Shown piece after piece: positions 15,063 to 18,927 of a stretch of 64,000 nt of DNA; position 1 is the stretch's first letter, and each line of letters starts with the position of its first letter. This DNA is from Alphaproteobacteria bacterium (GTDB lineage Bacteria; Pseudomonadota; Alphaproteobacteria; Ferrovibrionales; Ferrovibrionaceae), in assembly GCA_017307375.1 (NCBI GenBank), contig JAFKFH010000003.1, positions 1-64,000 on the forward strand, written 5' to 3'. Below the pieces are notes generated by a model. It saw only the letters and a program-made list of their open reading frames with translations, ran no database searches and was not told the origin of the DNA. The translations under genes were made by a program, and so were the position numbers.

Positions 15063-16229
15063 TCAGAAGCGGATTCGCCAGTTGACCGTGGCGCCGACGG
15101 CGTTCGACCAGTCGCCGGCGACGCGCTGGCGCTTGAAGCCGGCCCCCAGTTCCAGGCCGAAATCGAAGACATGGACGATGCCGGCGGTGAACAGCTGGTC
15201 GCGGCTGGTCCCGCCCGCATTGCCGACGTTCTCGATCGTCCGCGGCGTCATCGCGAGATTGACGATCCACTGCCGGCCGATCCTGGTTTCCAGCATCGCG
15301 GTCAGGAACGCGACGTCCTGATCGTTGCCGTGGTAGCCGCGGAACGCGGCATACTCGACCAGCGGGGTGACGCGCAGGTCGTCGGCCAGGCGGAACTCCT
15401 GGGCCAGGCTGACGATCCAGCCGGATTCGTCGCGGGGATTGTTCTGGCCCGCCTGCTGGAATTCCGCCGACACCATCCAGCTCAGCCCGGGCAGGTCCGG
15501 CACGTGGCCGCCGGTCAGCGACGCCGCCCAGGACCCGAGCCTGCCGGTATTGGACACGCCGCCATAGTCCAGCCGGTTATGGCCGAGGCGCTTGGCCCGC
15601 GGGTCGCCGAATGCCGGCGCGGTGAAGACCGACTGGCTCAGCAACGTCGAATCGGCCATGAAGGCCGACGCCTCGAACGAGACCCGGCCGAAAAGCGCGG
15701 ACGTCGCCGCCAGCCCGCCGCCCAGCCCGATCTTTTCCTTCAGCCGGTAGGCGGCGTTGAAATCCTGGCCGAACAGGATCGGCGCCCGATCCCAGGCGAT
15801 GCCGACGAACGGGTCGAACTTGCCGGCGAAGGCGGTGACGGTATCGTCCTGGTAGCGGGCGAACAGATGCTCGATATAGCCGCCCGTACCGGCGAAGGCG
15901 GTGGACGAGCCCGGGGCGGGACTTTCGACCTGACCCAGCCGGGTCATCAGCTGCAGCGAAAAACGCCGATCGAGAAACAGCGCCGTATTGTTGCGCAGAT
16001 CGGGATAGAGGTTGGCCAGCCGGCCGTCCGGCGCCTGGGATCCGAACGTGTCGATGGCGAAGAATCGCAAGGTGGCGAGATCGACCAGCGTCGGGGCGCC
16101 GCGATATTCCCCGGGCAGCAGGGCAAGGCGCTGATAGGGCGTCTGCTCGAGGAACGGGCTCAAGGCCGCGGCCGGCCCGTTGGCCAGGACCGCGGCAACG
16201 GCGAGGGAAATGGCCGCGACACGTCTCAT
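15063..16229 (-). CDS. Outer-membrane beta-barrel protein of unknown function
   Basis: A 388-residue precursor. The signal peptide is MRRVAAISLAVAAVLANG with a likely cleavage after PAAA. The mature part alternates hydrophobic and polar residues with many aromatics. It ends in VNWRIRF, a terminal phenylalanine typical of BAM-assembled barrels. I do not recognise a specific porin family. It diverges from the ssrA promoter, with only about 30 bases between its start and the ssrA -35 box. Confidence 0.7.
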   Translation of the reverse strand: MRRVAAISLAVAAVLANGPAAALSPFLEQTPYQRLALLPGEYRGAPTLVDLATLRFFAIDTFGSQAPDGRLANLYPDLRNNTALFLDRRFSLQLMTRLGQVESPAPGSSTAFAGTGGYIEHLFARYQDDTVTAFAGKFDPFVGIAWDRAPILFGQDFNAAYRLKEKIGLGGGLAATSALFGRVSFEASAFMADSTLLSQSVFTAPAFGDPRAKRLGHNRLDYGGVSNTGRLGSWAASLTGGHVPDLPGLSWMVSAEFQQAGQNNPRDESGWIVSLAQEFRLADDLRVTPLVEYAAFRGYHGNDQDVAFLTAMLETRIGRQWIVNLAMTPRTIENVGNAGGTSRDQLFTAGIVHVFDFGLELGAGFKRQRVAGDWSNAVGATVNWRIRF

Positions 16230-16262
16230 GCGCCGTCAGACTGCCGGCCGCGTGTGACAGGC

Positions 16263-16291
16263 TTGCGAAAGCGGTCGGCTATCCCTATATC
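16263..16291 (+). promoter_or_regulatory. Sigma70-type promoter of split ssrA
   Basis: TTGCGA at 16263-16268 and TATATC at 16286-16291 are separated by exactly 17 bases. Transcription would start near 16298, just before the acceptor half of the tmRNA gene. The spacing and the position support it as the ssrA promoter. Confidence 0.6.
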
Positions 16292-16297
16292 TCTTGG

Positions 16298-16378
16298 TGC
16301 CGGGCAACCGGCTATGGCGATAAACACCGTATGGAATAAACGTTACGGACCCGGGGGCGGTACCCGGCGCCTCCACCA
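16298..16378 (+). ncRNA. ssrA: Two-piece tmRNA, acceptor RNA (3' half)
   Basis: This is the first-transcribed half of a circularly permuted ssrA. It ends with CGCCTCC (16368-16374), discriminator A and an encoded CCA (16376-16378). CGCCTCC pairs with GGGGGCG, which opens the coding half at 16429. The third pair is G-U, the alanyl-tRNA synthetase identity element. A T-stem, CCGGG/CCCGG, lies at about 16351-16367. The 5' end is inferred from the promoter. The T-loop is not the canonical TTCGA type, as expected for alphaproteobacterial split tmRNAs. Confidence 0.85.
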
Positions 16379-16428
16379 AGAGCCCATGACCCAGGTGTGG
16401 ACCAGGGACGTTCTCGTGGGTTGTTGCT
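16379..16428 (+). other. Intervening segment of permuted ssrA, removed from the precursor
   Basis: Fifty bases lie between the encoded CCA of the acceptor RNA and the GGGGGCG that starts the coding RNA. In permuted tmRNAs this spacer is cut out by tRNA-type processing, leaving two base-paired RNAs. The exact cut sites are inferred from the tRNA-like ends. Confidence 0.75.
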
Positions 16429-16605
16429 GGGGGCGAATCAGGCTCGACGTGCGTGGTAAAGATACGACTTTCGCTCGGCATGGTTCCGCCGTCATCGGGC
16501 CATATCACAAGTGCCAATGATAACACTGAGGCGCTCGCTGTCGCTGCATAAGCGATAAGCGCGGTTCGGGGGGCACCGGGCAACAGAAGCCCCCCACTCA
16601 ATCTC
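16429..16605 (+). ncRNA. ssrA: Two-piece tmRNA, coding RNA (5' half) with tag reading frame
   Basis: It begins GGGGGCGAATCAGGCTCGACG, matching the conserved 5' end of tmRNA. The tag frame runs 16513-16551: resume codon GCC, then N-D-N-T-E-A-L-A-V-A-A and a TAA stop. With the tRNA-borne alanine the peptide is AANDNTEALAVAA, with the AA end read by ClpXP and the AAND part bound by SspB. A GGGGGGC/GCCCCCC hairpin (16568-16574 with 16589-16595) closes the 3' region. The 3' end is approximate. The tag is translated from stalled ribosomes. Confidence 0.85.
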
Positions 16606-16734
16606 CCGACGCCACGGAAAACGCCGGTCCCCCGCCACGATCGTTGCGGGCGCCCTTGCCGTGGCGGCGGGCTTTCGGCCACAATGGCCGCTTAGCTGGC
16701 GTACTGGTTCAAAAGACGGTTAGGGGACGGCTGC

Positions 16735-17259
16735 ATGGCCCGCGACTTCATGGATTACAACAGCATGGTCGAGGACGCGTTGCGTCTGGTCGTGCGCCGC
16801 GCGGTCGAACGGGTGATCGCCGAGGGCCTGCCCGGCAACCATCATTTCTACATTTCGTTCCGCACCGATTTTGCCGGGGTCGACATCCCGGAATACCTCC
16901 ACGCCCGCTATCCCGAGGAAATGACCATCGTGCTGCAGCACCAGTATGGCGGGCTGCACTGCGACGACGAGAAGCTCGGCGTCACGCTGAACTTCAACAA
17001 GGTGCCCGAGCATCTGGTGGTGCCGTTCGCGGCGATCACCGCCTTCGCCGACCCGTCGGTAAATTTCGGCCTGCAGTTCCACGGCACGGCGATGGCCGCC
17101 AACAGCGCCCGGCGCAACGGTCCGGCGGCGGTCAAGCTGCAGGAACAGCAGCCTGCCGCGAAGGCCGAGACCCCGGCCGCACCGTCCGACGGGAGCGACG
17201 GCCCGGCCGAAGGCGGCGCCAAGGTCGTGACCCTCGACGCCTTCCGCAAGAAGCAGTAA
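16735..17259 (+). CDS. sspB: SspB, ClpXP adaptor for ssrA-tagged proteins (alpha type)
   Basis: A 174-residue adaptor that binds the ssrA tag and ClpX and speeds delivery of tagged proteins. The N-terminal domain (residues 1-120) has MVEDALRLVVRRAVERV, HHFYISFRTDFAGVDIP, MTIVLQHQYGGL and FAAITAFADPSVNFGLQF, as in alphaproteobacterial SspB. A disordered Ala/Pro/Glu linker leads to the C-terminal ClpX-binding tail AKVVTLDAFRKKQ. AGGGGA precedes the ATG. It lies directly downstream of ssrA on the same strand, which matches its role. Confidence 0.92.
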   Translation: MARDFMDYNSMVEDALRLVVRRAVERVIAEGLPGNHHFYISFRTDFAGVDIPEYLHARYPEEMTIVLQHQYGGLHCDDEKLGVTLNFNKVPEHLVVPFAAITAFADPSVNFGLQFHGTAMAANSARRNGPAAVKLQEQQPAAKAETPAAPSDGSDGPAEGGAKVVTLDAFRKKQ

Positions 17260-17313
17260 GACGCCGGCGACGCCGCGACCGCTTCACCCAGCCCGACACG
17301 CAAGGGATTGCGC

Positions 17314-18927
17314 ATGCCCGATTTCAGCTACCAGGACCTGTTCCCGCAGGGAGCCGACACCACGCCCTATCGCAAGCTGACGGCCGAAGGCGTCGAGACG
17401 ATCGAGGCGGGCGGGCGCAGGATCCTGAAGGTCGCGCCCGAGGCGCTGTCGACGCTTGCCTTCAACGCGATGCGCGACATCGCGCATCTGTTCCGGCCCG
17501 GCCATCTGGCGCAGCTCGCAAAGATCCTCGCCGACGACACCGCCAGTCCGAACGACCATTTCGTCGCCCGCGAGATGCTGAAGAACGCCAATGTCTCGGC
17601 CGGGATGATCCTGCCGTCCTGCCAGGATACCGGCACGGCGATCGTCGTCGGCAAGCGTGGGCAGAACGTCTGGACCGACGGCCGGGACGAGGCGGCGCTG
17701 AGCCACGGCGTCTACCGCACCTATACCGAGACCAACCTGCGCTATTCGCAGATGGCACCGCTGTCGATGTTCCAGGAAAAGAACACCGGCACCAACCTGC
17801 CGGCCCAGATCGACCTGTTCGCCACCGACGGCGATGCCTACAAGTTCCTGTTCATGGCCAAGGGCGGCGGGTCGGCCAACAAGACCTTCCTGTTTCAGGG
17901 CACGCCGGCGCTGCTGCGCGGCGAGGCGCTGCTGAAATTCCTCGACGAGAAGATCAAGACCCTCGGCACCGCCGCCTGCCCGCCCTATCATCTGGCGATC
18001 GTCATCGGCGGCCTGTCGGCAGAACAGAACCTCAAGACCGTCAAGCTCGCCTCCGCGCGCTACTACGACAGCCTCCCGACCGAAGGCTCGGCCGGCGGCC
18101 AAGCCTTCCGCGACGTCGAGTTCGAGCAGCAGGTGCTGGCCCTGACCCAGGCCTCGGGCATCGGCGCCCAGTTCGGCGGCAAGTATTTCTGCCACGACGT
18201 CCGCGTCATCCGCCTGCCGCGCCACGGCGCCTCGCTGCCGGTGGGCATCGGCGTCTCCTGTTCGGCCGACCGCCAGGTGCTGGGCAAGATCACCCATGAG
18301 GGTGTCTTCCTCGAACAGCTCGAGACCGATCCGGCCAAGTACCTGCCCGAGGTCACCGACGCGCATCTGGCCGACGACGTCGTCGCCGTCGACCTGAGCC
18401 GGCCCATGAGCGAGATCCGGGCGCTGTTGTCGCAATATCCGATCAAGACGCGGCTGAAGCTGACCGGCACGCTGATCGTCGCCCGCGACCTCGCGCACCA
18501 GAAACTGGCCGAGCGCCTCGACCGCGGCGAAGGCCTGCCCGACTACGTCAAGAATCACCCGATCTACTACGCCGGCCCGGCCAAGACGCCGGAAGGCTAC
18601 GCCTCCGGCTCGTTCGGCCCGACCACGGCCGGCCGCATGGATTCCTTCGTCGACATGTTCCAGAAGCACGGCGGATCGATGGTGATGCTGGCCAAGGGCA
18701 ACCGCTCGAAGGCGGTGACCGAGGCCTGCAAGACCCATGGCGGCTTCTATCTCGGCTCGATCGGCGGCCCGGCCGCGATCCTCGCCCAGAACTGCATCAG
18801 GAAGGTCGAGGTGCTGGAGTATCCTGAACTCGGCATGGAAGCGATCTGGAAGGTCGAGGTCGAGGATTTCCCCGCATTCATCATCGTCGACGACAAGGGC
18901 AACGATTTCTTTGCCAATCTGGCCTGA
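17314..18927 (+). CDS. fumA: Fumarate hydratase class I (4Fe-4S, oxygen-sensitive)
   Basis: An approximately 537-residue TCA-cycle enzyme interconverting fumarate and malate. The N-terminal alpha domain contains [18 protein letters not shown] with a cluster cysteine and [13 protein letters not shown]. Further cysteines lie in [17 protein letters not shown] and near [18 protein letters not shown]. The C-terminal beta domain has [16 protein letters not shown] and [17 protein letters not shown]. The ATG at 17314 is chosen because AAGGGA lies 6 bases upstream; a TTG two codons earlier is less likely. A strong hairpin follows the stop. Confidence 0.93.

Follow-up and report, generated by a model that had tools for sequence, protein, structure and literature searches.

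Does the plus-strand stretch that begins at position 16263 of the window (the whole 64,000-nucleotide stretch of DNA analysed here) encode the tag RNA of trans-translation next to the adaptor that reads its tag, and is such a neighbourhood out of the ordinary? The locus is almost certainly a two-piece tmRNA (ssrA) gene of the ordinary alphaproteobacterial kind with sspB downstream, a reading already put forward in an earlier note on this DNA and now backed by covariance models, ARAGORN and Pfam. The alpha-tmRNA covariance model (RF01849, alpha_tmRNA; gathering score 50 bits) gives a 258.4-bit match (E 5.6e-74) on the plus strand, 16259-16598, that covers the full model (positions 1-355 of 355), and RF04321 (tmRNA_permuted) matches at 16316-16551 (+) with 148.8 bits, over its gathering score. 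ARAGORN reports a gene at 16282-16642 under the label tmRNA*, which we take to denote the permuted form. The features of the locus are as follows.

16263..16291, plus strand: likely tmRNA promoter (TTGCGA at 16263-16268, 17-base spacer, TATATC at 16286-16291), from the sequence and from similar pairs at related tmRNA genes
16297-16598, plus strand: two-piece tmRNA gene, circularly permuted (Rfam, ARAGORN, sequence)
16297..16378, plus strand: acceptor RNA, ~82 nt, with an encoded CCA end at 16376-16378 (RF01849 and RF04321 alignments); its 5' end is set from the promoter position
16379..16428, plus strand: intervening segment of 50 bases, predicted to be removed (fold, sequence)
16429..16598, plus strand: coding RNA (RF01849 alignment, sequence); its 3' end is the end of the Rfam match
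16513..16551, plus strand: tag reading frame ANDNTEALAVAA and stop (ARAGORN, 232-270 of the gene starting at 16282)
16568..16595, plus strand: 3' hairpin around GGGCAACAGAA that closes the coding RNA (region aligned by RF01849)
16735..17259, plus strand: sspB, ClpXP adaptor of the alphaproteobacterial type, 174 aa, C-terminus VVTLDAFRKKQ (PF04386, solved relatives)
17308-18927, plus strand: class I fumarase gene, next after sspB (Pfam)

The order of the pieces is permuted, the acceptor piece with its CCA lying upstream of the coding piece, as is evident from the sequence and from both Rfam models. The anatomy read earlier from the letters holds in each part, including the encoded CCA end, the 50-base spacer and the pairing of the first 7 bases of the coding RNA with the acceptor end: GGGGGCG (16429-16435) can pair at 7 of 7 positions with CGCCUCC (16368-16374), the third pair being G-U. 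The 3' hairpin region (16560-16601) folds to -17.2 kcal/mol, which is weak fold evidence when taken alone because its z-score is only -1.13. The region 16365-16440 is predicted as a single long helix (-41.1 kcal/mol, z -3.78; shuffles -28.29, sd 3.39, with 0 of 200 as stable) in which the intervening segment extends the acceptor stem. The segment folded alone gives a z-score of -1.71, the acceptor stem supplying part of the long-helix stability.

The modelled shape of this helix would suit a precursor cut on either side of the intervening segment. By analogy with characterized two-piece tmRNAs, the promoter at 16263-16291 would drive a single precursor transcript, whose acceptor stem would close over the 50-base segment prior to its excision. 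RNase P would probably make the cut at 16429, and the 3'-processing pathway of tRNAs the one after 16378; the acceptor and coding RNAs so released would stay joined by base pairs. Northern blots described in the accessible part of PMC2245857 assign 82 nt (the 5' piece) and 204 nt to the tmRNA pieces of S. meliloti, and those in the accessible part of PMC7335160 assign ~80 and ~240 nt to the pieces of Orientia, together with a 372-nt precursor.

The assignment of the site at 16263..16291 as the tmRNA promoter, judged from its sequence, is likely. Its 17-base spacing is ideal, as the earlier note had stated, but each hexamer matches only 4 of 6 sigma-70 consensus positions, and the site is not among the promoters listed by a generic sigma-70 scan. 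The -10 hexamer falls within the 5' flank modelled by RF01849, and related tmRNA genes show a similar pattern upstream. In 75 of 112 distinct tmRNA upstream regions the best -35/-10 score was at least 9 of 12 (as compared to 50 of 1120 shuffles), and the spacer was 17 bases in 72 of the 109 sites that scored at least 8 of 12, with the -10 taken as TATATT after inspection of the same genes and with many of the regions coming from related genomes. Since the -10 was chosen post hoc and the genomes are related, this comparison is a consistency check and no independent test.

The tag frame read earlier is the one that ARAGORN yields, and ANDNTEALAVAA is an ANDN-type tag with an AA end. By analogy with known systems, the two-piece RNA, charged with alanine and acting with SmpB, would rescue stalled ribosomes, and A-ANDNTEALAVAA would be appended to the stalled product; SspB would then bind the AAND portion of the tag and pass the tagged proteins to ClpXP, which would recognise the C-terminal end. 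On the same grounds the SspB of the window is expected to bind the tag peptide AANDNTEALAVAA, and recognition of the tag by ClpX is expected as well. The LAVAA end had been singled out as a variant to be tried for ClpX recognition; it is nothing special, because tags with an AVAA end are common. They make up 11 of 51 ARAGORN tags (the window's own among them) from loci L001-L055 (n=55), and 15 of the 61 printed for the named loci (L056-L135), the best 80 of at least 548 relatives by SspB similarity, a set skewed to kin such as Reyranella. One of the latter (L135, tag ANDNDALAVAA) shares the complete -ALAVAA end, and the Caulobacter tag has an AVAA end as well.

The product of sspB matches PF04386 at residues 11-165 with 148.6 bits (E 1.9e-43), far above the curated cut-off of 27 bits, and has three solved relatives at E of 0.001 or lower: 2nys (AGR_C_3712p; 1.1e-31), 2qas (9e-31) and 2qaz (1.2e-30), the latter two of which we take to be Caulobacter SspB. 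Its tail, VVTLDAFRKKQ, presumably the ClpX-binding element, is one residue apart from that of 2nys (VVSLDAFRKKQ), and a strict pattern for a tail of this type fits 43 of the 80 best SspB relatives (out of at least 548). The start of sspB had been placed about 130 bases downstream on the same strand; its ATG at 16735 is separated by 136 bases from the Rfam match and by 92 bases from the ARAGORN end at 16642.

The surroundings of the two genes offer some additional observations. Among the named loci (best 80 of at least 548), a fumarase is encoded downstream of sspB on the same strand in 62, of class I in 40, of class II (FumC), a different family, in 26 and of both classes in 4, as counted with 4 of the 80 loci having 1500 bases or less of downstream sequence; most matches in this set are 0.5-3 kb away from where sspB starts. 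The pattern resembles the exchange of an enzyme for its analogue in the same position. On the other side, a 388-aa open reading frame (15063-16229, minus strand) is divergent from the tmRNA gene; its N-terminus appears signal-peptide-like by eye, and no Pfam family matches it at E 0.001.

How widespread is the adjacency of the tag RNA and its adaptor? The rarity implied in the earlier note finds no support: in the sampled genomes of the class, adjacency is the most frequent arrangement. Across 143 genomes of the class with completeness of at least 95% (the window's own genome among them), alpha_tmRNA matches were obtained in 140, SspB in 133 and both genes in 132. Matches above the cut-off remain in 138, because the only matches of G041 and G061 fall under it; two extra copies in G006 and five matches under the family cut-off were excluded from the class counts. 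In 92 of the 132 genomes sspB lies no more than 500 nt downstream of the tmRNA on the same strand, at 37 to 395 nt (median 109); the distances are those between the last base of the Rfam match and the point where the Pfam match begins, not the start codon. Another 3 such downstream cases fall at 501-1500 nt and 12 at 1501-5000 nt; the single case of the latter group that was inspected (L146) has an M19 peptidase gene between the two. The genes are not near each other in the remaining 25 genomes (19 on another contig, 3 on the opposite strand of the same contig, 3 on the same strand more than 5 kb away), and some of the 19 may reflect assembly breaks. Within the window's own family both genes occur in 15 of 18 genomes, adjacent in 12 of these 15 and on different contigs in 3 (as judged by eye).

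The named loci (best 80 of at least 548) give a similar picture, with an ARAGORN tmRNA at most 500 nt upstream of sspB in 58 of the 80, for example in Oceanibacterium hippocampi, Fodinicurvata fenggangensis, Reyranella massiliensis and Kaistia hirudinis. The 22 loci of this set not counted as adjacent comprise 7 with less than 600 bases of upstream sequence, 12 without a plus-strand ARAGORN tmRNA and 3 at distances of 505-1488 bases. Since most of the surveyed relatives have the same arrangement, that of the window is not unusual.

Such proximity might mean that ssrA and sspB are transcribed together as a single unit, the amount of adaptor tracking that of the tag RNA, an explanation that we consider possible if doubtful. 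The short same-strand gap in those 92 of 132 genomes argues for it, as do loci L070 and L078, where the sspB match begins before the ARAGORN tmRNA has ended; on the other hand, the genes are 1.5-5 kb apart in 12 of the 132 and unlinked or more than 5 kb apart in 25. A hairpin-plus-T terminator was found in none of the 58 gaps among the named loci (best 80 of at least 548) and nowhere in 16150-17400, which would also favour read-through. However, the zero of 58 says little, because the scan was strict (perfect stem of at least 6 with at least 5 T in 8), uncalibrated and without a positive control, and shuffled gaps give only 0.25 of 58. The longest T run, moreover, is 5 in 9 of these 58 gaps (best 80 of at least 548) and 6 in 4. 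In the window itself the transcript could be terminated by a hairpin within 16600-16690, whose predicted fold is stable (-44.6 kcal/mol, z -2.04, equalled by 8 of 200 shuffles). A more general version, in which most alphaproteobacteria would make tag RNA and adaptor from a single read-through transcript, co-tune tagging with ClpXP delivery and excise the two-piece RNA from the 5' leader of the sspB mRNA, appears to us slightly less probable still, and unlikely.

The reading of the locus as the regular ssrA gene followed by sspB also depends on the rest of the genome (7,539,962 bases in 41 contigs, listed as 100% complete), where a different high-scoring ssrA was looked for. There is no second RF01849 or tmRNA_permuted match anywhere in it, and the standard tmRNA model gives nine matches elsewhere, all under the cut-off (the best at 39.6 vs 47 bits), whose lengths of 72-94 bases resemble those of tRNAs. 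Neither of the two outcomes that the earlier note had named as refuting its reading, a lack of any plus-strand hit to the alpha-tmRNA model or a rival ssrA elsewhere, was obtained. That the locus is a decayed or chance copy with the working ssrA elsewhere is, judging by sequence, very unlikely to the point of being negligible: nothing was found in its favour, the nine matches all being sub-cut-off, and against it stand the full-length model match, the intact tag frame and acceptor pairing, and the lack of any other above-cut-off match with the three tmRNA models in a genome of full listed completeness.

A few other genomes of the class differ in their tmRNA content. Next to a normal permuted tmRNA (185.5 bits), G006 carries two extra ones, L157 on contig C5 (109.9 bits) and L158 on contig C3 (107.8 bits), of which one only has an ARAGORN tag, long and divergent (ANRKALGFADLTVGMSKMRLAA). 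Both contigs contain SufB-like, ATP-dependent DNA ligase and weakly ParB-like genes of similar size matching PHROGs, and one of the two also has a ribonucleotide reductase gene; the contigs probably come from phages that encode a tmRNA of their own and ended up in this genome through binning. G134 and G061 have a standard one-piece tmRNA (L136, 176.2 bits, and L137, 152.9 bits, with ARAGORN tags ANNDFEYKLAA and ADDNFEYAMAA, respectively), no permuted tmRNA above the cut-off and no SspB match. In G131, G139 and G041 (completeness 95-99%) none of the three tmRNA models (alpha, standard, permuted) gave an above-cut-off match; G131 has an SspB match and the other two have none; these cases may be due to assembly gaps or divergent genes.

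The family itself is well described, the accessible part of PMC11915505 counting 11,946 distinct permuted tmRNA sequences. As for its neighbours, the accessible part of PMC2245857 (a 2007 study) lists tmRNA as one of 3 out of 11 small RNA genes with both flanks conserved in alphaproteobacteria, does not name sspB in that statement, and terms a functional association uncertain; the accessible part of PMC2573895 gives SMc01449 and SMc01450 as the neighbours of S. meliloti ssrA. Among the abstract openings searched, none states ssrA-sspB adjacency, which is weak evidence. A row for DUF1321 in the Zymomonas start-site table, in the accessible part of PMC7566282, was set aside as a candidate sspB, the identity of DUF1321 with SspB being unconfirmed. 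Our survey quantifies the ssrA-sspB linkage across the class and bears on the association left uncertain in the accessible part of the 2007 study (PMC2245857).

A tmRNA gene beside the gene of a protein from its own pathway is likewise known from the ssrA-smpB neighbourhood of other bacteria (linkage according to the accessible part of PMC2245857), whereas the neighbour here is a degradation adaptor and not SmpB; in S. meliloti, the same part of that paper places smpB 1.1 Mb from the tmRNA, unlinked. The SspB of the window shares the PF04386 domain with its alphaproteobacterial counterparts (2qas, 2qaz, 2nys) and, as far as tested, differs from them in sequence divergence only. With the two-piece tmRNAs of Caulobacter, Sinorhizobium meliloti and Orientia the locus has in common the permuted order, the CCA, the intervening segment, the G-U third pair and an ANDN-type tag; the differences are in sequence and exact tag residues only, and none is of kind. 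Overall, this is a known type of gene in its usual place, and it enlarges a well-described family by one sequence.
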